A DNA stretch of 47,056 bases. Origin: Acidobacteriaceae bacterium. Lineage in GTDB: Bacteria > Acidobacteriota > Terriglobia > Terriglobales > Acidobacteriaceae. This document shows positions 522 through 9,997 of this stretch, one piece after another. The stretch spans positions 98,810 through 145,865 of the forward strand of contig PKUV01000165.1 in the NCBI GenBank assembly GCA_003131315.1. The letters run 5' to 3'. The position numbers were made by a program, and so were the translations under genes. Under the pieces are notes generated by a model that was not told the DNA's origin, ran no database searches, and saw only the letters and a program-made list of their open reading frames with translations. Within the stretch, counting starts at the first letter, position 1, and every line of letters starts with the position of its first letter.

Positions 522-1544
522 CTATGGCCGATGAGAATATGCGACAAGGTATAGGGCCGCGATTTCTTCCTCTGTGAAGTACGGGTAGGCGGGCATCACG
601 TCTCCACCGGTCATTTTCATCGTGCTGGAGGAGCCGTATTGCACCTGGTGAACAATGCCGCTGAGAGAGTGATCTCTGGGGATGCTGGCCAGCGACGGGA
701 TGGTCCCTTGCGTCATGGCCGTGTGCCCGCTTCCAGGACCGGTCGCGTCGTGACAGACATGGCAGGTCCCCCTCACGATGTGCTCGCCGACGCGGGCCGC
801 AGATTCGGGGACCAGAAGACCATCGCGCTTTGTGGGTGGGACCGATGCCAGCTTCTCCAGATAGCCGAACAAAGCTTCCACCTCATCGGCGCGCAGGTAC
901 TCGAACGACGGCATGTTCTTTCCACCATGTTGAAAGCGGTCTCGCAGGGAGGCTTCCGCCAGTTCCGTCACCTGTTGGATCATGTCATCATCCACGTCGA
1001 GTCCTCTCGCCTCCAGGCGCTTTCGCGTCATTACCGGGGAAGTTCCTTGCACCGGGCCGAGCACCGAGTTGATTTCTGGCGTTGCCCCTTGCCCATCGGG
1101 CCCATGACACGCCTGGCAATTCCAGCGGTAAAGATCGGCTCCCGATACTGCGAATTTTTCATTCAAGATTGCCGCAGCCTGTTCCGGGTTGGAGCGGAAC
1201 GTTGACAGGAAGCGTGGAATGACCGAGTTCAAGTTGGCTGCCCTCCCCGTATCTCCGCTGGACGGTTGCGGGTTCCCGTGCGTGCTGGCGGGAAGGGCGC
1301 CGGTTCCTCCCATCTGTCCCATGCGAGTTTGTGAGACCGTGAGCCCGAGATGTTTCAGACAGCTCGGTCCCTGGCCGGAGGGAATGGGATACTCACGGAC
1401 TGTCGCTGCCGCGACGGGTGTAGCCGCGGTCGGCGCACCGCCGTTTTCCTTGTTGGCGGGTGCGTTTTGAGCCGAAGCCGAAACCAGTAGGCCAGCCGCG
1501 GCCAGGGTTGCCGCAAGTGCGAAAGCAGCAGATATCCGTTTCAT
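522..1544 (-). CDS. Diheme c-type cytochrome, secreted
   Basis: A 340-residue periplasmic cytochrome c. A Sec signal peptide (MKRISAAFALAATLAAAGLL, cleavage after ASAQ) is followed by a low-complexity linker and two heme-binding motifs, CQACH at about residue 145 and CHVCH at about 262, each in a cytochrome c class I-like setting. The ATG at 1544 was preferred to one 33 nt upstream because it directly begins the signal peptide and has GAGGGGC at good spacing. It is the last gene of the redox locus and probably passes electrons between the NrfD/FeS module and a soluble or terminal acceptor (inference). A 255-bp gap holding dispersed repeats separates it from the NrfD gene, so it may have its own promoter. 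Confidence 0.85.
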   Translation of the reverse strand: MKRISAAFALAATLAAAGLLVSASAQNAPANKENGGAPTAATPVAAATVREYPIPSGQGPSCLKHLGLTVSQTRMGQMGGTGALPASTHGNPQPSSGDTGRAANLNSVIPRFLSTFRSNPEQAAAILNEKFAVSGADLYRWNCQACHGPDGQGATPEINSVLGPVQGTSPVMTRKRLEARGLDVDDDMIQQVTELAEASLRDRFQHGGKNMPSFEYLRADEVEALFGYLEKLASVPPTKRDGLLVPESAARVGEHIVRGTCHVCHDATGPGSGHTAMTQGTIPSLASIPRDHSLSGIVHQVQYGSSSTMKMTGGDVMPAYPYFTEEEIAALYLVAYSHRP

Positions 1545-1649
1545 GACGTGCCCCTCGTTGGAATTAACAAATTGCATCCGAAAATTGGACTGCGAGCTTT
1601 GATGAACATTGGAGCGGGTTCTCGTGATCGTGTAGAGTACGCGCCCTCA

Positions 1650-1799: not shown

Positions 1800-3878
1800 C
1801 TAAGCGCCCGGCGCTGTCCTGACCTGAGCCACGACCACTGCCTGGGAGAATTTGCGCATTTTCCACAAGATGAGATATCCAAAAGCATAGATAAACGCCA
1901 CCCACATCGCGCCGTAAAACAACAGGAACGGAACAGCAATGTACGGAGTGGCGTAGGGCGTGATCAAGACGCCGACCCTGGGCAGCGAGGGCGCCGGCCG
2001 GGCGCCGAAATCGACGGCGACATCGAAGGTTGCAGGAGCATACTCCTCGTCGCCGCGGAAGACGACCTGTACGGGATAGGTGCCGTAGCGCCGGTCCTTG
2101 ATGACCAGTTGCGCTTTGCCATCCGCCAGGGTGGGACGGCTGCCGAAGGCCAGAGTGCCGAGTCCGGTCTTGGCCGAGAACTCTACCGGCTTGAAGCTGA
2201 TGGGCGCGCCGCTGGAATCGCGCAAGGTGGCAGTGACGGCAACCGGCGACGACGGTTTCAAGTCGCCTTCAGCGGAGTGGTCAGGGGACGTTTCCAGAGT
2301 GAAGAGCCGGCCGGTGTACATGAAGACGCGCGCGCGCGGGAGAAGAGGATTACTGTCGTCGTCGGCAGACTTGCGGCTTGCTTGCGCCGCCGGGACGGTC
2401 TTCCATTCCACGGTAATCGCGGTTGGCTTCGGTAGTTTGGGCTTGGCTGAGCCGGCGGCGTTCGCGGGTTTGCCATACAGCAACAGCGCCGCCACGGCCA
2501 GGATTGGAACCACGGTCCCTGGCCTCCACCAGCCCGAAGGCACAGACTCGGGTAGTTCGGGCACTGCAACCTTCTCTCTCTGCTCGCGCGTCTCCCAGAT
2601 CGAGACGATGGGGAACAGCTTGACCATCAAGGTGTAAATCAGGGCAAAGCCTGCGACCGCAGCCGCGGTGATGGACCACTCCACCCATGTGGGATGGTAA
2701 TGAGTCCACTCCCAGGGCAACCTCTGTCCCGAGGGCAGATAGGGGCTGCGGAGGGTGGGAACAACGATGATGTAGCGCTTGACCCATGCGCCCACAATCA
2801 CCAATGCCGAAGAGAACACCACGCCGGGGATGGTATAGCGGTGATAGCGCTTGAGGCCGAGCACGGCGATCATGAGCGCGGCCGGAATGAACACGCACAG
2901 GCTCTGCGCGACCCAGAACAACATGGCATAGTCACCGACGAAGAGCCGTTGCATCAGCATGCGCTCGCTTCCCTCCAGCTTGTAGCCCGCCGTGAAGTAT
3001 TCATTGATGTTGAAGTACAGGTACATGAGCGAGAAGGCCAGCAGGAGTAGGCCAAGTTTGTGGAAGTGCAACTCTTCGACATAGTCCTGCAGGTGGAAGA
3101 CGCGCCGCAGCACGTACATAGAGAAGATCACGCCGGCGGTTCCGGAGTAGATGGCGCCGATCACAAAATAGGGACCAAAGATGCTGCTGTTCCATCCCGG
3201 GCGGAGGGTCATGGCGAAGATCCACGAGACCACGGTGTGCACGGAGACCGCCAGCGGGATGATGAAGATGGCCATGAAAGAAATGGCTTTCTCCAGCAAT
3301 GCCTTCTGCTGCGGGGTTCCGGTCCAGCCGATGGCCAGCGTACTGTAGAGGCGGCGGCGCCAGGAAGCGAGCCGGGGTTGCACGGCCAGGAACGCCAGAT
3401 CCGGGATCATGGGGATATAGAAATACAGGATGCAGCCGGTCAGGTAGGTGCTCACGCCCAGCACATCCCAAATGATGGGCGACTGGATACGGCCGTAGCG
3501 GAACAGGTTCAGCATGCGGTCGGGCCGTCCCATGTCAATCATGACCATGGGGCCGCCGATGCAGAGGGCAAAAACGGTGATAGCCTCGGCCATGCGCGTG
3601 ATCGGCGTGCGCCATTCGGTATCGGTGACGCGCAGGATGGCCGAGATCAGAGTGCCGGCGTGGCTGATGCCGATGAAGAAAACGAAATTGGTAATGTACA
3701 GTCCCCAGGAGATCTGGTCGCGCATGCCGGTGACGATGAGCCCGTTCCGCAGTTGCTGGATGTAGGCGTAGAGTCCCCAAAGGAGTACGACGATCAGGAA
3801 TCCCACCCAGACATAGAACCGCCAGGTGTTTTCCAGCACAGAACGCAAAAGGTTCTGCTCACGAGCTTCCATGCTCAC
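1800..3878 (-). CDS. NrfD/PsrC-type quinone-interacting membrane subunit with C-terminal beta-sandwich
   Basis: A 692-residue integral membrane protein. Residues about 1-430 form an NrfD/HybB/PsrC-like bundle with many hydrophobic helices and the family-typical segments ISWGLYITNFVFFIGISHAG and WRTPITRMAEA. This fold oxidises or reduces quinol and exchanges electrons with a periplasmic FeS partner, which is the gene 8 bp upstream. After a further helix (about 455-475) comes a roughly 170-residue extracytoplasmic region resembling an Ig-like/carboxypeptidase-regulatory beta-sandwich (PVAVTATLRDSSGAPISFKP and following), then a final helix (about 640-670). Family members usually stop at about 400 residues, so this tail is unusual. 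The ATG at 3878 gives the natural N-terminus. It is co-transcribed with the FeS gene. The substrate side of the complex is unknown because no catalytic subunit is encoded nearby. Confidence 0.88.
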   Translation of the reverse strand: MSMEAREQNLLRSVLENTWRFYVWVGFLIVVLLWGLYAYIQQLRNGLIVTGMRDQISWGLYITNFVFFIGISHAGTLISAILRVTDTEWRTPITRMAEAITVFALCIGGPMVMIDMGRPDRMLNLFRYGRIQSPIIWDVLGVSTYLTGCILYFYIPMIPDLAFLAVQPRLASWRRRLYSTLAIGWTGTPQQKALLEKAISFMAIFIIPLAVSVHTVVSWIFAMTLRPGWNSSIFGPYFVIGAIYSGTAGVIFSMYVLRRVFHLQDYVEELHFHKLGLLLLAFSLMYLYFNINEYFTAGYKLEGSERMLMQRLFVGDYAMLFWVAQSLCVFIPAALMIAVLGLKRYHRYTIPGVVFSSALVIVGAWVKRYIIVVPTLRSPYLPSGQRLPWEWTHYHPTWVEWSITAAAVAGFALIYTLMVKLFPIVSIWETREQREKVAVPELPESVPSGWWRPGTVVPILAVAALLLYGKPANAAGSAKPKLPKPTAITVEWKTVPAAQASRKSADDDSNPLLPRARVFMYTGRLFTLETSPDHSAEGDLKPSSPVAVTATLRDSSGAPISFKPVEFSAKTGLGTLAFGSRPTLADGKAQLVIKDRRYGTYPVQVVFRGDEEYAPATFDVAVDFGARPAPSLPRVGVLITPYATPYIAVPFLLFYGAMWVAFIYAFGYLILWKMRKFSQAVVVAQVRTAPGA

Positions 3879-3886
3879 CTCTCAAT

Positions 3887-4729
3887 TCAATGCGCCATTC
3901 CCGGCATTTCGGTTTGGGCGGTTTCGGTTTTCGCCTTCTCGTCCGGAGCCGGGTACTTGCGGCTGGCGGGAGGCAGATAGTAAACGCTTGGTTCCGTTCC
4001 CAGTTCTTCCATCAGCCGAAAACTGGCTCCGCGCTTGGCGATCTTGGTGAACTGGATAGTCTCGCCTTTGCCGTTGGTCACCGCATCTTCCAATCGGTCT
4101 CCGAAATAGATCGCACCCATCTTGCAGGTCGCGGCACAGGCAGGAAGCTTGCCCGCCCGGAGGTGCTCGGGGCAGAAGATGCACTTTTCCACTGTGCCTT
4201 TGCGGTGCGGGTAGTTGTATTCCACGTTGTACGGGCGAGCGAGTTCCTGGGACGTATGGGGTGGTTCTCCCCAGTTGAAGGAGCGCGCGGAATAAGGGCA
4301 TTGGGCGATGCAGTTGCGGCAGCCGATGCAGCGATCGTCATCCTGGATGACAATGCCGTCGGTGCGTTTGTAGGTGGCGCCCACGGGGCAGCCGCGCACG
4401 CACGGCGGGTTGTCGCACTGCATGCAGGGACGAGGCAGAAAGTAAGGTCCCGCCGCCTCGTTATCGGTGATTTCAAAAACCTTGATCCACTCCTGCATGG
4501 GTGGGACGAAGTGCATCGCGGTGCAGGCTTTGGTGCAGTCCCGGCAGCCGTCGCACTTGGCCAGGTCAATGACCATGACCCATTTCTGGTTGCCGGGAGC
4601 AAGCGACCGGGAAGGAAGCACCTCGTGGAACACCTTCGAGACGCTCGCCTTCCAGGCCACTCCCACTGCCACGGCGGCCCCTGTCCCCCGCGCCAAGAAC
4701 TGCACGAAACCACGCCGCGTTACTGCCAT
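3887..4729 (-). CDS. Tat-exported 4x[4Fe-4S] ferredoxin-like electron-transfer subunit
   Basis: A 280-residue NrfC/DmsB/HybA-type iron-sulfur protein. The N-terminus has a twin-arginine signal (TRRGFVQFL followed by a hydrophobic Ala/Val stretch), so it is folded in the cytoplasm and exported. Four cysteine groups are visible: CDGCRDCTKAC, CMQCDNPPCVRGC, CIGCRNCIAQC and CIFC with PACAATC, the usual set for four [4Fe-4S] clusters. It would wire the membrane NrfD protein (start 8 bp after this stop) to periplasmic cytochromes. In classical complexes it also feeds a molybdopterin subunit; none is present here. The upstream CuA gene ends 28 bp before this start, so CuA-FeS-NrfD are probably one mRNA. 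Confidence 0.92.
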   Translation of the reverse strand: MAVTRRGFVQFLARGTGAAVAVGVAWKASVSKVFHEVLPSRSLAPGNQKWVMVIDLAKCDGCRDCTKACTAMHFVPPMQEWIKVFEITDNEAAGPYFLPRPCMQCDNPPCVRGCPVGATYKRTDGIVIQDDDRCIGCRNCIAQCPYSARSFNWGEPPHTSQELARPYNVEYNYPHRKGTVEKCIFCPEHLRAGKLPACAATCKMGAIYFGDRLEDAVTNGKGETIQFTKIAKRGASFRLMEELGTEPSVYYLPPASRKYPAPDEKAKTETAQTEMPGMAH

Positions 4730-4757
4730 GACTCACTCCACGAAATTTCGCGTTTGC

Positions 4758-5171
4758 TCACGGTATGACGACCAGCCTCATCTTCATGTCGTCGTGGCCT
4801 TGGCCGCATTTGACCGTGCACTCCACCACGTAACTGCCCGGCTCCGCGGGCGCCACCAAGGTGAAGTCCTGCGTGCCTTCCTTGAGGCGCAGGTCCCAGC
4901 CCTGGTCCTTGAGCGCATTGATGGTGAAGGTATGGATGGTGCCATCTTTGTCCCACTCGGTGCTTTTGTTGGCGGTGATCCGCAGGTGCACCACCTCATT
5001 GGCTTTCAAAGTGATCACCGGGAGCTTCTGGCCCGGGATTTTGTACCGGTTGTCCTTGTCGGCGATCACTGTGATCAGCCGGGGTGGGCCACCCGCGATG
5101 GCGAGCGGGGACAAGATGCCCAGCACGAACGCAAACAGGACTGCCAGCAGAATTCGATTTGTTTTTAACAA
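4758..5171 (-). CDS. Secreted CuA-type cupredoxin (CoxII/NosZ-like copper domain)
   Basis: A 137-residue periplasmic copper protein. From the TTG at 5171 it begins with a compact signal peptide (LKTNRILLAVLFAFVLGIL, then SPLAIAGG). The mature part is a cupredoxin domain with an upstream IHTF histidine and the C-terminal site CTVKCGQGHDDM. This matches the CuA spacing C-x3-C-x3-H-x2-M, but Val replaces the usual Glu between the cysteines. TTG was chosen because GAGAGG lies 6 nt upstream, the signal peptide then has normal length, and a sigma-54 element at 5211-5225 would start RNA near 5199, downstream of the competing ATG at 5231. It probably shuttles electrons between the cytochromes and the FeS/NrfD pair. 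Use of the TTG start is an inference; the domain call is firm. Confidence 0.82.
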   Translation of the reverse strand: MLKTNRILLAVLFAFVLGILSPLAIAGGPPRLITVIADKDNRYKIPGQKLPVITLKANEVVHLRITANKSTEWDKDGTIHTFTINALKDQGWDLRLKEGTQDFTLVAPAEPGSYVVECTVKCGQGHDDMKMRLVVIP

Positions 5172-5210: not shown

Positions 5211-5225
5211 GCAATCTGGAATCCA
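5211..5225 (-). promoter_or_regulatory. Predicted sigma-54 (-24/-12) promoter for the CuA-FeS-NrfD genes
   Basis: Read on the minus strand the bases are TGGATTCCAGATTGC followed by A: TGG, then TTGCA, with exactly GG-N10-GC spacing. The transcript would start near 5199, 28 nt before the TTG start at 5171. It lies about 155-170 bp downstream of a palindrome identical in plan to the one before the tetraheme gene. The -24 half is only TGG, not TGGCAC, so this is a good but not perfect site. Confidence 0.55.
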
Positions 5226-5365
5226 GTCCAATGCCGGGAACGCCTACTTTGTCCCAACCGGCGCTAAATGCCTGCAAACTCAGACCGAGATGATGCCAGG
5301 AGGGCGGGTTTTGGGGCGAGCCGAAATGAGCTTGTACAAATTACCGCCACGCTGCGGCAGGAGCG

Positions 5366-5395
5366 ATCGGACAGTTTGTGTCCGATACTCGGACA
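5366..5395. promoter_or_regulatory. Predicted activator-binding palindromes (UAS) upstream of the CuA gene
   Basis: Three TCGGACA/TGTCCGA half-sites stand in a row: 5367-5373, 5379-5385 (inverted) and 5389-5395. The pair at 5379-5395 is TGTCCGATACTCGGACA, a perfect 7-bp inverted repeat with a 3-bp spacer. The only similar site I found in the window is at 6768-6784, ahead of the other redox transcription unit. Its position about 190 bp above the predicted start suits an NtrC-type enhancer-binding protein. Confidence 0.6.
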
Positions 5396-5397
5396 CT

Positions 5398-6630
5398 TCA
5401 GCGGTGTTCTTCCGGGGGCGAATTCAGGAAGGCAAGCAAATCGCCGACATCGCTTTCAACTAAGGTAGGCCAGCCAATGCCCACCGGGCGAGTTTGCGCA
5501 TACATCTGCTGGCCGTGGCGCCAGAGCGCAACTGCCAGACTGATGGAATTGTAATTACGTCCCCGGAGTGCGGGCGCGTGCGCGGTCCCTTCGGCGTTTT
5601 CACCATGACAGCGGCTGCAACCTCGCCACATGAACACGCTGGCTCCAACATGGGGCGAACCGGCGGGATCGACGTATCGCAGGCTGTAAAGGAACGCAAA
5701 AACATCGGTCATCTCCTGGGCTGACAGCTGCGGGCGCGCGATGCCTTGCCGCGCCATCGCCTGCTCCATTAGCGGGGAATGGCTGACCATGGCGCCGCCC
5801 AGTTCGGTAAAGGTCTCAGGCAAAGCACGCTCAGGCCCAAGGTTTGGTCCCTCCAACTGGTCGGCCGCGCGAATGGAGTGACATCCGGTGCAGGACTTCT
5901 GCTGAAACACCTGCCATCCGCGCGCGGGATCGCCATGCGGTACCGAACCGCGCGAGGCGTTTTGCCGCACGAACGCGTACAGGTCCCGCAGTTCATGACC
6001 CTGAAATTGCGGCCATGCAATGCCTTCCCGCTCCGCGGCCTGACGCATGCCCGAGGCGTGGTTCCAAAGGGCTTTGGTCCACTCCATGGGCCCGGTCAGA
6101 TCGCTTGCCGCCGCCAGGTCGGGCCCAATTCTCCCGCCCACCCCGTCCACGGCATGGCAACGTATGCAGCCTTTGCTGGTAAAGAGATCGTGTCCGCGGG
6201 CCGGATCACCGGGATCATCCACGTGGCGGGACATGTAAAGGTAGGCGAGCAACTGGGCGACGTCGTCGTAACTGAGAGTGGGGTAGGGAACACCGTCGGC
6301 GCGCATGCGTTCCCACATCTGGGGTGCGTGATTCCACATGGCCGTGACGAGCTGGGGCAGGCTCGATTGGGCGGGCTTTCTGTGGCCGAGGTCGGGCCCA
6401 ACTTTGCCGCCCTCGCCATTCACCGCGTGGCATCGAACGCAGCCTTTGTCGCGGAACACCACGCTGCCTTGTTGGGGGCTGCCCGCCAGAAAAACGGACC
6501 AGCGTTCGCGTGCCCGCCGGCCTTGGGTAACGAGGGCTCCGGTGAAGGCAAGGACAGCGACTGCAGCCAGAAGCGTCCAGACCATCAAGGGAAGTGGCAG
6601 GCGCCCATCGGAACCCTGGCTAGGTGACAC
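5398..6630 (-). CDS. Membrane-anchored tetraheme cytochrome c (four tandem domains)
   Basis: A 410-residue protein with one N-terminal helix (LPLPLMVWTLLAAVAVLAF) and four tandem cytochrome c domains of about 90 residues. The heme motifs are CVRCH, CIRCH, CTGCH and CSRCH. The domains share a pattern after the heme site, (W/S)H-x3-M-x8-GI-x-WP and a final DL-x-AFL helix, with the Met in the WNHAxxM-like segment a likely distal ligand. The GTG at 6630 was chosen over an ATG at 6705 because AGGAG sits 6 nt before it and a sigma-54 element starts RNA near 6643. It is the first gene of the redox locus and is predicted to carry electrons across the periplasm as a heme wire. Confidence 0.88.
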   Translation of the reverse strand: MSPSQGSDGRLPLPLMVWTLLAAVAVLAFTGALVTQGRRARERWSVFLAGSPQQGSVVFRDKGCVRCHAVNGEGGKVGPDLGHRKPAQSSLPQLVTAMWNHAPQMWERMRADGVPYPTLSYDDVAQLLAYLYMSRHVDDPGDPARGHDLFTSKGCIRCHAVDGVGGRIGPDLAAASDLTGPMEWTKALWNHASGMRQAAEREGIAWPQFQGHELRDLYAFVRQNASRGSVPHGDPARGWQVFQQKSCTGCHSIRAADQLEGPNLGPERALPETFTELGGAMVSHSPLMEQAMARQGIARPQLSAQEMTDVFAFLYSLRYVDPAGSPHVGASVFMWRGCSRCHGENAEGTAHAPALRGRNYNSISLAVALWRHGQQMYAQTRPVGIGWPTLVESDVGDLLAFLNSPPEEHR

Positions 6631-6654
6631 GTCGGTCTCCTGCTGGAAACTCCC

Positions 6655-6669
6655 GCAATCGCCTCGCCA
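6655..6669 (-). promoter_or_regulatory. Predicted sigma-54 (-24/-12) promoter for the tetraheme cytochrome gene
   Basis: On the minus strand the bases read TGGCGAGGCGATTGC. TGGC and TTGC match the -24 and -12 boxes with exact GG-N10-GC spacing. The predicted transcription start (about 6643) leaves a 13-nt leader holding the AGGAG at 6637-6641 and then the GTG start at 6630. The adjacent regulator gene has the GAFTGA loop needed to activate sigma-54. Confidence 0.65.
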
Positions 6670-6741
6670 CAGATGGCGGCCAACGTATTTGGAAACTCTG
6701 GTCATCGCAGCATTTACTGGTAGCGGTGGTGAAGAGCGGCT

Positions 6742-6793
6742 GGCCGGAACTGTCGTAAGCCTCGATGTGTCAGAAAATCGGACAGTTCCGGCC
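6742..6793. promoter_or_regulatory. Predicted activator sites: 13-bp inverted repeat and embedded 17-bp palindrome
   Basis: A perfect inverted repeat has arms GGCCGGAACTGTC (6742-6754) and GACAGTTCCGGCC (6781-6793) separated by 26 nt. Inside it lies TGTCAGAAAATCGGACA (6768-6784), which matches the palindrome at 5379-5395 in plan and in 13 of 17 bases. The centre is about 124 bp upstream of the predicted sigma-54 start, a normal distance for an NtrC-family enhancer. It also lies 4 bp past the regulator's stop codon, so a transcript hairpin/terminator role is an alternative. Confidence 0.6.
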
Positions 6794-6797
6794 CGCG

Positions 6798-8177
6798 CTA
6801 CGTCTCGGTACGATACTCCTTTAACTTCCGATAAAGCGTGTCGCGAGAGATGCCCAGCAGGGCCGCGGCCTTGCTCCGGTTCCCTTCAGCGAGCCGGAGT
6901 GCCCGCTCGATTGCCATCCGCTCCAGCGGTTCAATCGCCAAAGTCTGCTCGACACCCTTGGCGAGTGGCAGGTCTGCCAGCCCAGCCGGATCGAGCAGAG
7001 GCCGCAGATCTTTTTCCGTGATGGTCTGCGGATCGTCGCGCGACACTGCGGCCAGGCTTTCGAGCAGATTCTCCAGTTCGCGGACGTTGCCCGGGAACGA
7101 GTACTTCAACAGCAATTCCACGGCCCCACGATGGAGGGCGATCAACCGTTCGTAGCGTTGTTCGAGCTTCTGCAACGTGTGTTGAGTCAACACCAGAATG
7201 TCCTCGGGTCGCGTGCGCAAGGGAGGGATCTCGATGACGACAGTGGCGATTCGAAAATAGAAATCCTGGCGAAGCTGATCGCTGCGAAGCTCGGCGTTGG
7301 TGTGATTGGTAGCGGCGACGATGCGCACGTCCACGGGAATCGCCCGGGTGCCGCCCACCGGCCGCACCTCTTTATCTTGCAGCACGCGCAACAACTTCGC
7401 CTGAACTTCTTTCGGCATTTCGCCGACCTCGTCGAGGAACACCGTCCCGCGCGCCGCGGAAGCGAAGATGCCGACCCCGTCCGCGAATGCGCCGGTGAAA
7501 GCGCCGCGGCGATAGCCAAACAGTTCGCTCTCGACCAGCTCTCTGGGCAGTGCGGCGCAGTTCACCGGAACGAACTGGTTCGCCGCGCGGCCACTGGCGG
7601 CATGAATGGCTCGCGCCAGCAGTTCTTTCCCGGTGCCGGTTTCCCCCAACACGAGGACCGGCGCATCGGACTCCGCGGCGGCTCGCGCCTTCTCCACCAC
7701 CCGCTGCATCGACGGCGACACGTACACAAGGGAGTCGAAGGAGGGGCAGTAGCGATGCAGATTGCTCTCCAGCTGCGAGACGCGGCTTCGCAGCCGGAAT
7801 ACCTCCAGGATTCGTCCCACTTTCTTCTTCACCGCATCGGGCTCGAGCGGCTTGGTCAGATAGTCTTCGGCGCCGCGCTTGATTGCCTCGACCGCAGTTT
7901 CAATGGTGCCAAAGCCGGTCATGATCATCACCGGCAGATCGGGATTGTGGCGCTGCAACTGCTCCATCAGCGAAATTCCGTCCGTCGCGGGCATCATCAA
8001 ATCCAACAGTGCCAGACAGATGCCGGGGTTCCTCTGCTGGACAGCAAGGGCTTGTTCGCCATCATTGGCGGTTTCGACCTGGTATCCTTCTTCCTCCAGG
8101 AACTCCTTCAGGGTCCGGGTAAGGCTGGGATCGTCGTCCACCACCAGCACCGTGCACTTTGTGACCGCTCCGCTCAT
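6798..8177 (-). CDS. NtrC-family sigma-54-dependent response regulator
   Basis: A 459-residue regulator with the full bacterial enhancer-binding layout. Residues 8-120 are a receiver domain (acidic DDD at 14-16, phosphorylation site Asp59 in LLDLMMP, conserved Lys in LTKP). Next is an AAA+ domain with Walker A GETGTGKE, the sigma-54 contact loop GAFTGA and Walker B VFLDEVGE. The end is a Fis-type helix-turn-helix (EGNRSKAAALLGISRDTLYR). Its start overlaps the kinase stop by 4 bp, so the two are coupled. The downstream tetraheme and CuA genes have sigma-54 elements and matching upstream palindromes, so this is their probable activator. Confidence 0.95.
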   Translation of the reverse strand: MSGAVTKCTVLVVDDDPSLTRTLKEFLEEEGYQVETANDGEQALAVQQRNPGICLALLDLMMPATDGISLMEQLQRHNPDLPVMIMTGFGTIETAVEAIKRGAEDYLTKPLEPDAVKKKVGRILEVFRLRSRVSQLESNLHRYCPSFDSLVYVSPSMQRVVEKARAAAESDAPVLVLGETGTGKELLARAIHAASGRAANQFVPVNCAALPRELVESELFGYRRGAFTGAFADGVGIFASAARGTVFLDEVGEMPKEVQAKLLRVLQDKEVRPVGGTRAIPVDVRIVAATNHTNAELRSDQLRQDFYFRIATVVIEIPPLRTRPEDILVLTQHTLQKLEQRYERLIALHRGAVELLLKYSFPGNVRELENLLESLAAVSRDDPQTITEKDLRPLLDPAGLADLPLAKGVEQTLAIEPLERMAIERALRLAEGNRSKAAALLGISRDTLYRKLKEYRTET

Positions 8178-9490
8178 ACCAGGACCTTCTCCGGTGCCGC
8201 TGCTTGGGGCGAGAGCGGCAACTCGATTCGCACCGCCGTTCCCCGGTTCGGCGCGCTGTCAATACGCATGGAGCCTTCGTGTTCCTGCAGGATGGTTGCG
8301 GCAATCGACAACCCCAACCCGGTGCCTTTGCCCACTGGCTTGGTAGTGAAAAACGGCTCAAAAATGTGCGGCAAGTTTACCGGCTCAATGCCGCAGCCGT
8401 CGTCTTCAATGGAGACGTGAATGCGATCGTCTGCCGCGTGGCAGCGAACCGTAATATGTCCCTTGGGCTGGACGGCATCCAAGGCGTTCGTGATAAGGAT
8501 CAGGAACAAAGCCTCAATCTGGTTCCGGTCCGCCATGACCGCAGATCCGTCCGCCGCATCCATGTCGAGCGTCAGATGGATCTGCTTCGTAACCAGTTGC
8601 GGGCTTAAGAAACTTAAGACCGAATCAAGCGTGTCCTTGATCGCTTCCACACGCCGCGTAAGTTGTGGCCGGCGGCTGAAGTCCAACAACCGGCGAACAA
8701 ACTGCTGGCAGTAACGAATGTTGCCCTCCAGATCGCCAAGATCGACGTCCACGCTCGCGTTCTGGACGTGCTTGCGGGCGAGTTCGACGCGCAGCAGCAT
8801 GGAGGCCAGTGGCGTATTCAGGTGGTGCGCCGTACCTGCCGCCATCTGGCCCATGGTGGTCAGTTTCTCGACCTGCAGCAATGTTTGCCGCAGACGGATG
8901 CGTTCCCGAATATCAATGCTCACCTCCAGGAAGTAACGTCCGGGCTCTTCTTCGTGGTAGGGAAGCACGTTGGTTTGTACGTCAACGAGAGCGCCCTGCT
9001 TGGTGCAATGGCGGGTCTCGACATCCAGCACAGGCCTGCCTTGGGAGGCTTGCTTGAGAAACGCCTGCATTTCGCTTTGCTTTTCGGCGGGGATGGTGGG
9101 CAACTTGCTCCCCAGCACTTCAGCGCGAGTGTAACCGTACAGGTCCTCAGCGGCGGCATTCCACTCCGCGACAATGAGGTCGGAGTCGAAAAGTGCAATG
9201 GCCGCGGGAGAGCAATTGAGAATTCCGCGGTAGCGCGCCCGCGACCGCCGGAGCTGCCGCTCGCTGGCACGGCGCGCCCGCAACACGAACCAGGCGGCCC
9301 AGAAGGCCAGCAGTAACGAGGAGACCACACCCCGGCTAACGTACAGGTAGTGGAGAGTGAGGTAATCGACATCGCGGAAGAAATGGGATTCCAGCAATTC
9401 CCAGACGGCGAACACAAGCCCGATAATGCTGATGCTGGAAAGCGCCAGCGTGGCCCAGAACCACCGCCGCTCGGGAAAGTCGTCGCTCAT
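8174..9490 (-). CDS. PAS-domain membrane sensor histidine kinase
   Basis: A 438-residue sensor kinase. Two N-terminal helices (FWATLALSSISIIGLVFAVW and VVSSLLLAFWAAWFVL) enclose only a short extracytoplasmic loop. A PAS domain follows (ILNCSPAAIALFDSDLIVAE to IDIRERIRLR), then the HisKA domain with the phosphorylated His in GTAHHLNTPL and an ATPase domain with N box ITNALDAVQ, G1 DDGCGI, F box FEPFFTTK and G2 GKGTGLGLS. The small loop and PAS domain suggest it senses an internal or membrane signal such as redox state (inference). An in-frame ATG at 9580 is also possible; 9490 was preferred because it begins the natural MSDDFPERRWFW segment with GGTGG upstream. It is coupled to the regulator gene. 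Confidence 0.92.
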   Translation of the reverse strand: MSDDFPERRWFWATLALSSISIIGLVFAVWELLESHFFRDVDYLTLHYLYVSRGVVSSLLLAFWAAWFVLRARRASERQLRRSRARYRGILNCSPAAIALFDSDLIVAEWNAAAEDLYGYTRAEVLGSKLPTIPAEKQSEMQAFLKQASQGRPVLDVETRHCTKQGALVDVQTNVLPYHEEEPGRYFLEVSIDIRERIRLRQTLLQVEKLTTMGQMAAGTAHHLNTPLASMLLRVELARKHVQNASVDVDLGDLEGNIRYCQQFVRRLLDFSRRPQLTRRVEAIKDTLDSVLSFLSPQLVTKQIHLTLDMDAADGSAVMADRNQIEALFLILITNALDAVQPKGHITVRCHAADDRIHVSIEDDGCGIEPVNLPHIFEPFFTTKPVGKGTGLGLSIAATILQEHEGSMRIDSAPNRGTAVRIELPLSPQAAAPEKVLV

Positions 9491-9997
9491 GGATCCACCG
9501 CGTCGCGGCGGCCTCAGGTTCCCCATCAGATGGCTGGAATCGTATCCGGGACGAACACACTTCGCTGTGATCTCCGTCACATGGGGGCCGGTTATGTTGC
9601 GGACAGCGGATGTGTAAACGCCGGAGCAAAATAGACCGCATCACGCCGCGGAAGCGGGGTGATGCGGCGGAGGGTGTACGTCTTAACAGGCTGCGGAAAA
9701 GCGCGAGATCGAGTTTTTCCGCAGCCTGTGAAGCCGTGCCCTTTCAAAGAACCATTTATGAGACCGGTTCTAGTCTCGCGACCGCGGATCTTTTTCGCGG
9801 AACCTGCTGGCGGCGGAGTCGCGTTTGATGTGATTCCCCAGGGGGACGTAAAGTTTCGGCCTCACTTCGAAGGGGGTCGGCGCAGGCGAGAAAGTCCACC
9901 ACTTCTGTGCCATTTCACCCCGATTCTCCACAGCCTTCCACCGCGTTGCTACTTGCATTCCCGCACACAAGTTCCGGATAATCATTGACGAGAGTTC
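9491..9997. other. Intergenic region between divergent genes with two strong hairpins
   Basis: No gene is seen here. The region holds a hairpin at 9636-9667 (14-bp stem with one mismatch and a GGAA tetraloop) and a perfect 15-bp hairpin at 9686-9729, described separately. Promoters of the kinase (minus) and TPR gene (plus) must lie here but I cannot place them confidently. Confidence 0.6.
9686..9729. repeat. Perfect 15-bp inverted repeat, dispersed element
   Basis: ACAGGCTGCGGAAAA (9686-9700) and its exact complement (9715-9729) enclose 14 nt. The right arm and following bases form a 29-nt word (9715-9743) that recurs exactly at 1731-1759. A-rich and T-rich inner ends make a bidirectional terminator possible, but its recurrence marks it as a dispersed element. 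Confidence 0.7.

Follow-up and report, generated by a model that had tools for sequence, protein, structure and literature searches.

The locus described here is very probably a sigma-54-dependent two-component regulon, in which a sensor kinase and an NtrC-type response regulator would switch on the adjoining electron-transfer genes through two operators and two promoters. It lies in a stretch of 47,056 nucleotides (the window; its locus is designated W) from Acidobacteriaceae bacterium GCA_003131315.1, contig PKUV01000165.1, whose genome (the home genome) comprises 6,004,649 bases. Seven genes follow one another on the minus strand in the order kinase, regulator, cyt4, cupredoxin, 4Fe-4S protein, NrfD and cytC2, interspersed with the predicted control sites:

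8174-9580, minus strand: sensor histidine kinase, with N-terminal hydrophobic hairpin, PAS, HisKA and HATPase_c
6798-8177, minus strand: NtrC-type response regulator, with receiver, AAA+ with GAFTGA and Fis-type HTH
6768-6784, no strand assigned: operator palindrome 1, TGTCAGAAAATCGGACA, between regulator and cyt4; presumed upstream activating site
6655-6669, minus strand: predicted sigma-54 promoter 1 (-24/-12), TGGCGAGGCGATTGC (6669-6655), exact GG-N10-GC
5398-6630, minus strand: cyt4, cytochrome with a membrane anchor and cytochrome-c domains that hold four CxxCH motifs, GTG start
5379-5395, no strand assigned: operator palindrome 2, TGTCCGATACTCGGACA, with perfect arms
5211-5225, minus strand: predicted sigma-54 promoter 2 (-24/-12), TGGATTCCAGATTGC (5225-5211), exact GG-N10-GC
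4758-5171, minus strand: cupredoxin with CuA-type motif C-x3-C-x3-H-x2-M, probably exported, TTG start
3887-4729, minus strand: 4Fe-4S ferredoxin-type subunit, DsrO/NrfC-like (Pfam Fer4_11 3.4e-22)
1800-3878, minus strand: NrfD-type membrane subunit with C-terminal Ig-like extension (Pfam NrfD 1.5e-36; Big_1 below cut-off)
522-1577, minus strand: cytC2, final gene of the group, a cytochrome c with two CxxCH motifs (Pfam Cytochrome_CBB3, two stretches)

We infer that the kinase would phosphorylate the regulator, which would bind TGTCCGA-N3-TCGGACA sites and oligomerise; such a dyad is often accompanied by another, weaker one or by a half-site. The regulator would then contact the sigma-54 polymerase at the GG-N10-GC promoters, with predicted starts about 130 and 190 bp downstream of the sites. 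Promoter 1 would drive the tetrahaem cytochrome cyt4, and promoter 2 the CuA, FeS and NrfD genes and probably also cytC2. The type of regulator, the predicted operator and promoters, their conservation and the local extent of the putative regulon are established by sequence and comparison.

An NtrC-type regulator with GAFTGA had been placed immediately upstream of the promoters by an earlier, sequence-only reading, and this was confirmed. The protein has all the parts of a two-component activator of this type, namely a receiver, an AAA+ domain with GAFTGA (read in the translation) and a Fis-type HTH (Pfam Sigma54_activat 1.9e-63, Response_reg 3.9e-30, HTH_8 3.9e-16), and the start of its gene overlaps the end of the adjacent, preceding sensor kinase gene. 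None of the 25 NCBIfam families listed (of 115) reaches its cut-off, so we gave the regulator no named subfamily. The kinase matched HATPase_c (6.3e-27), HisKA (2e-9) and PAS folds in Pfam; its start is probably internal to the annotated frame, since most of the aligned relatives (15 orthologues) begin near the ATG of MSDDFPERRW. The home genome carries one rpoN gene (one Sigma54_DBD match, 8e-60).

Orthologues of the regulator form a sharply bounded group, sharing at least 62% identity, compared with at most 45% for paralogues in the home genome. Within the order (298 genomes), matches to the regulator at E 1e-150 or better were found at 16 places in 11 genomes, all with at least 63% identity, and 8 of 396 genomes of the phylum matched at 1e-140, including G302, G387 and G503 of other families. 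The 23 regulator loci range from 62% to 100% identity (tblastn). The HTH motif LGISRDTL(Y/H)RK is present in 16/16 aligned orthologues; its recognition helix is not distinctive, as a home-genome paralogue carries GISRATLYRKL. The membrane hairpin of the kinase, made of two helices, is better conserved than its PAS domain (0.77-0.86 vs 0.55-0.72 per 20 residues), suggesting that sensing takes place in or at the membrane, with the redox state of the quinone pool perhaps serving as the signal. The signal itself and the direction of electron flow, and with them the ‘signal-to-respiration’ part of the earlier reading, we only infer. Two regulator copies were found in each of G012, G022, G042, G228 and G276; as far as the contigs reach, one copy adjoins an NrfD-type module and the other a bc-type one. 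The operators of the two copies differ at their ends in G012, G022 and G276 (TGTACGAG.. vs CGTCCGAT..), providing a natural test of operator divergence.

Both promoter boxes, for which exact GG-N10-GC spacing had been claimed, were recovered on the minus strand. With the start placed 12 nt beyond the -12 C, simple arithmetic predicts a start for promoter 1 at about 6643, leaving a leader of about 13 nt to GTG 6630, and for promoter 2 at about 5199, leaving about 28 nt to TTG 5171. The sequence-only reading took the boxes to settle these two unclear start codons, and both codons are supported by the boxes directly upstream, the short predicted leaders and their retention in relatives. The GTG start of cyt4 is conserved in 5/5 loci and the TTG start of the cupredoxin in 4/4 aligned loci, each with a purine-rich, Shine-Dalgarno-like stretch in front.

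The two 17-bp palindromes were also present as described. Palindrome 1 differs from TGTCCGANNNTCGGACA by one mismatch, and palindrome 2 is followed on the minus strand by the spacer CAAAC and then by another half-site, TGTCCGA, an arrangement kept in W, L048, L049 and L102. By arithmetic, the palindrome centres lie 121 and 176 bp from the -12 C and about 133 and 188 bp from the predicted starts, close to the distances of about 124 and 190 bp first proposed. At up to three mismatches the window holds 2 palindromes against a shuffle mean of 2.49; as this loose count does not exceed the shuffles, the strength of the palindromes lies in the quality of the match. Across the 6,004,649 bases of the home genome, TGTCCGA-N3-TCGGACA at up to two mismatches occurs at 20 places, compared to 13 for the backwards control, and only the two window palindromes, 1.4 kb apart, have 0 or 1 mismatch. 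This result fits the earlier description of the circuit as ‘self-contained’. A wider regulon in the home genome was not adopted, and none of the 18 further two-mismatch sites is claimed as a target; 7 of the 13 inspected have YGG-N9-TGC within 220 bp, on either side and at inconsistent distance. A perfect 13-bp inverted repeat, GGCCGGAACTGTC / GACAGTTCCGGCC at 6742-6754 / 6781-6793, surrounds operator 1 and takes in one of its half-sites; the repeat is nearly kept in L049 and not kept in L048.

The gene order of W recurs in L048 and L049 (cytochrome 90% identical) and in L102 (77%). Conservation of the palindromes and -24/-12 boxes had been suggested as a check on the proposal, and both pairs are kept in these three loci. 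The interval from the palindrome end to the -24 box is 98, 89, 99 and 99 bp at the cytochrome and 153, 153, 152 and 144 bp at the cupredoxin (W, L048, L049 and L102, respectively), and promoter 2 of L102 is changed in its interior with GG and TGC retained. Palindrome 1 is conserved in L048, L049, L102, L050 and L051, the last two of which (about 60%) have GG-N10-GC at the aligned place. Absence of the palindromes beside orthologous loci was to have counted against the proposal; palindromes and boxes alike recur beside regulator orthologues down to ~62% identity, so that this check came out for it.

A role at the RNA level, with the palindromes folding into short hairpins after the regulator and cytochrome genes for termination or processing, we consider very improbable. 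The 7-bp arms, the 3-nt loop, the location close behind stop codons in the window and the 13-bp inverted repeat around site 1 would suit such a role. However, no T-run stands behind the window sites (by eye), the arms are often imperfect, the palindromes of L105 and L110 lie about 800 bp behind cyt4, before the next operon, and some palindromes are upstream of the kinase.

Support for the palindromes as operators of the regulon came from more distant loci. A weight matrix (PWM) was built from the eight sites found in W, L048, L049 and L102 and applied at a score of at least 13.5; L101 was left out of the counts because it repeats L049, and L051 out of the PWM test because its regulator DNA is 99.6% identical to that of L050. 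The 18 other regulator-orthologue loci yielded 23 matches in 251,919 bases, with 15/18 loci matching. In 38 selected cytochrome loci lacking a regulator orthologue there were 6 matches in 580,861 bases (5/38 loci), and in all 57 loci without a complete regulator orthologue, 13 matches in 738,176 bases (11/57). The 38 were a selection of these 57 cytochrome loci, and the 19 omitted include L054, L058, L109, L122 and L123. Among the 11 matching control loci, L109, L122 and L123 are contigs of genomes that bear the regulator elsewhere, and L054 and L058 have sites with promoter-like boxes behind them. Exact IUPAC-form matches occurred at 8 places, 7 of them in regulator loci of the 14 genomes with the regulator; the single match in 22 genomes without it (G067) has no promoter-like box within 250 bp. 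Allowing up to one mismatch, the 36 genomes showed no enrichment (47 vs 48 in the backwards control).

Individual loci varied in strength. The best site beat all 60 shuffles in L050, L103, L111, L116 and L153 and was weaker in L104-L108, L110, L112, L113, L056 and L156 (p 0.03-0.15 against 60 shuffles); L120, L154 and L155 had no PWM match (3/18), L120 and L155 being short contigs. The single counted match in L056 is inside the regulator gene, and a plausible pair behind that gene falls below the threshold. Dyad pairs 17-19 bp apart, the second mostly weaker, were found in L056, L102, L104, L105, L110, L112, L113, L116 and L153; paired sites are expected of enhancers for oligomeric activators. 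The top-ranked site is upstream of the kinase in L107 and L112, and further mostly weak sites occur there in L106, L107, L108, L112, L156 and L153, where they may serve autoregulation. In L153, a weak palindrome-like site at 4735-4751 (score 12.3, p 0.28) stands between the kinase and a divergently oriented gene at 3251-4603; this gene, for a protein with 13 CxxCH motifs, could be a further regulator target.

These counts bear on a rival reading, in which a different transcription factor, for instance a redox-responsive one, uses the palindromes as its operators and co-regulates the cluster, and the NtrC-type regulator has its binding sites elsewhere. Many factors recognise palindromic sites, and weak sites elsewhere in the home genome and those in the 11/57 loci without a complete regulator agree with such a factor. 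We nevertheless regard it as unlikely, as the sites follow regulator orthologues more closely than they follow the cytochrome (9.1 per 100 kb at the regulator loci, compared to 1.0 in the 38 loci or 1.8 in all 57), lie upstream of sigma-54-type boxes at an enhancer-like distance and are often paired.

YGG-N9-TGC, equivalent to GG-N10-GC, was present in 23/24 operator-to-gene regions, compared to 3.31 expected from mononucleotide shuffles, and 20,000 simulated draws never gave more than 11; the pattern was fixed after inspecting some of the regions, the loci are related, and several start codons bounding the regions were estimated, two being off by a few bases. The reverse strand gave 4/24 and other spacings 1-9 of 24, and these controls are unaffected by the choice of regions, being drawn from identical ones. 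When each cluster of related loci was represented by a single region, 9/10 had the pattern, compared to 1/10 reversed. The one miss, L153, has GG-N10-GC without the T. No conserved IHF-like site was found between operator and promoter, the best candidate having 2-3 mismatches in each of 8 regions.

We did not accept the box alone as evidence, since in the window neither TGG-N8-TTGC (10 vs 7.85 expected) nor the loose consensus (62 vs 82.5) exceeds shuffles; the pattern is without significance by itself, and the window boxes owe theirs to conservation in relatives. The same counts are what would be seen if the boxes were chance occurrences in a GC-rich genome and the operon were read from an ordinary sigma-70-type promoter. 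We regard that explanation as very improbable in view of the position, spacing and strand specificity over the 24 regions and of the retention of GG and TGC where W differs from L102 or L050 in the interior of the box.

The products of the window genes probably make up a membrane system that exchanges electrons between quinone and periplasmic cytochromes, that is, a quinone/cytochrome oxidoreductase. Cyt4 matched Cytochrom_C (three stretches) and Cytochrome_CBB3 in Pfam. The cupredoxin matched no Pfam family at E 0.001 or better; its match to NCBIfam CoxB (9.3e-6) is below the family cut-off and that to CyoA is weak (E 0.038), and the motif C-x3-C-x3-H-x2-M is present in the cupredoxins of W, L048, L102 and L050. 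The 4Fe-4S subunit is closest to PsrB/DsrO-type proteins (NCBIfam DsrO 2.1e-54, below cut-off; solved chain 2vpw_B 1.5e-30), and the solved chains nearest to the NrfD subunit are of the ActC type of alternative complex III (6lod_C 2.6e-61, 6btm_C 1.6e-56). Co-transcription of cytC2 is not certain, given a 222-bp gap upstream without a palindrome; the gene has the same place in the gene order in L048, L049 and L102. An identical intergenic stretch, TTTTCCGCAGCCTGTGAAGCCGTGCCCTT, stands at either end of the cluster (about 1731-1759 and 9715-9743) and appeared by eye to be a dispersed repeat.

The module resembles alternative complex III, Qrc and DsrMKJOP in its ActC-like NrfD, DsrO/NrfC-like FeS protein and c-type cytochromes, and differs from them in having no molybdoprotein-like or pentahaem subunit and in possessing a putative CuA-type cupredoxin. 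Alternative complex III contains ActB (molybdoprotein-like plus FeS), the pentahaem ActA and a second NrfD subunit, ActF. We rejected this assignment, as the seven genes of the window locus encode one NrfD subunit, a separate short FeS protein and no pentahaem cytochrome; only the ActC-like subunit matches.

Three types of module stand behind the kinase, regulator and cytochrome. Type C, that of the window, consists of CuA, FeS, NrfD and cytC2. Between cytochrome and cupredoxin, L050 additionally has genes for a decahaem MtrA/DmsE-type cytochrome and an MtrB/PioB porin, and these come with their own palindromes and a GG-N10-GC box. Type A (L103, L106, L107, L111, L112, L056, L153) is Qrc-like, with further cytochromes, a molybdoprotein, FeS and NrfD; the QrcB-like molybdoprotein was identified by family searches in L106, which also has a decahaem cytochrome and MtrB, and by gene size and order in the others. 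In type B (L104, L105, L110, L113, L116), the cytochrome gene overlaps the regulator stop codon and is followed by the operators and promoter, then by genes for a small cytochrome or membrane protein, a Rieske protein, cytochrome b and a nine-haem cytochrome; the protein families were checked for L104 and L116. In the regulator tree, type C forms one clade (support 0.72) and type B one clade (0.997), nested among type A with modest support (0.85). The operator thus appears to have persisted through replacement of one membrane complex by another, and the regulator seems to retain its DNA site while the complex under its putative control is replaced.

The components beside the regulator in L050 and L106 are those of MtrA/MtrB porin-cytochrome conduits. 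The home genome yielded no MtrB/PioB match, so an MtrAB system or extracellular route is not claimed for it. MtrB was found in 5/11 regulator genomes, compared to 18/298 genomes of the same draw. We dropped this association as proof, as 4/5 of the genomes belong to one genus and the MtrB match of G012 and G142 is on another contig.

Comparable arrangements are known from other bacteria. BccR of Geobacter sulfurreducens, reportedly described by Joshi et al. in 2021, is said to be a sigma-54-dependent response regulator adjoining the inner-membrane bc-type quinol oxidase CbcBA, which reportedly serves extracellular electron transfer in that organism. This reported arrangement resembles the type B loci, the likeness being one of arrangement alone. 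CbcBA is mentioned in excerpts of PMC12307469. In Desulfovibrio vulgaris, DVU3142 regulates the Ohc electron-transport complex according to excerpts of PMC4641369. As in W, an enhancer-binding protein gene lies beside genes for a cytochrome-c/FeS/membrane complex, and predicted sigma-54 promoters and binding sites are conserved across genomes; unlike in W, the genes are divergently transcribed, the complex comprises octahaem c, FeS and haem b, and the phylum is different (PMC4641369). We likened DVU3142 to the window regulator by gene arrangement alone.

Among the titles and opening lines of abstracts in the openly licensed literature, we found no description of such a sigma-54 electron-transfer regulator in Acidobacteriota. 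PMC12316311 has 0 occurrences of ‘Acidobacteri’, and the main text of the NrfD review PMC8076601 has 0 of ‘cupredoxin’ and ‘copper’. Judged by these sources, sigma-54 activators that serve membrane cytochrome complexes are of a known kind (DVU3142/Ohc, PMC4641369), and their occurrence in Acidobacteriota would be new. The example adds an unusually clear operator together with module exchange.

Acidobacteriota are numerous in soil, and their choice of respiratory chains is little understood. We suggest, tentatively, an ancestral acidobacterial redox switch, in which one kinase/regulator pair with a stable operator would have remained with interchangeable modules for quinone and cytochrome, or been re-connected to them (NrfD/molybdoprotein, NrfD/CuA, Rieske/cytochrome b), several of these modules leading to an outer-membrane MtrAB conduit. 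Such a switch might sense the potential of the quinone pool or of the acceptor through the conserved membrane hairpin and could govern, as a master switch, extracellular or low-potential respiration of the soil Acidobacteriota. The conserved operator and the bounded regulator group provide a handle, in that the sites predict which cytochrome operons share one regulon. Through the sites, start codons also gain support, and an orphan CuA/NrfD cluster is linked to clusters of relatives that have a putative role in extracellular electron transfer. That an operator is kept while the membrane complex is swapped is a directly testable idea.
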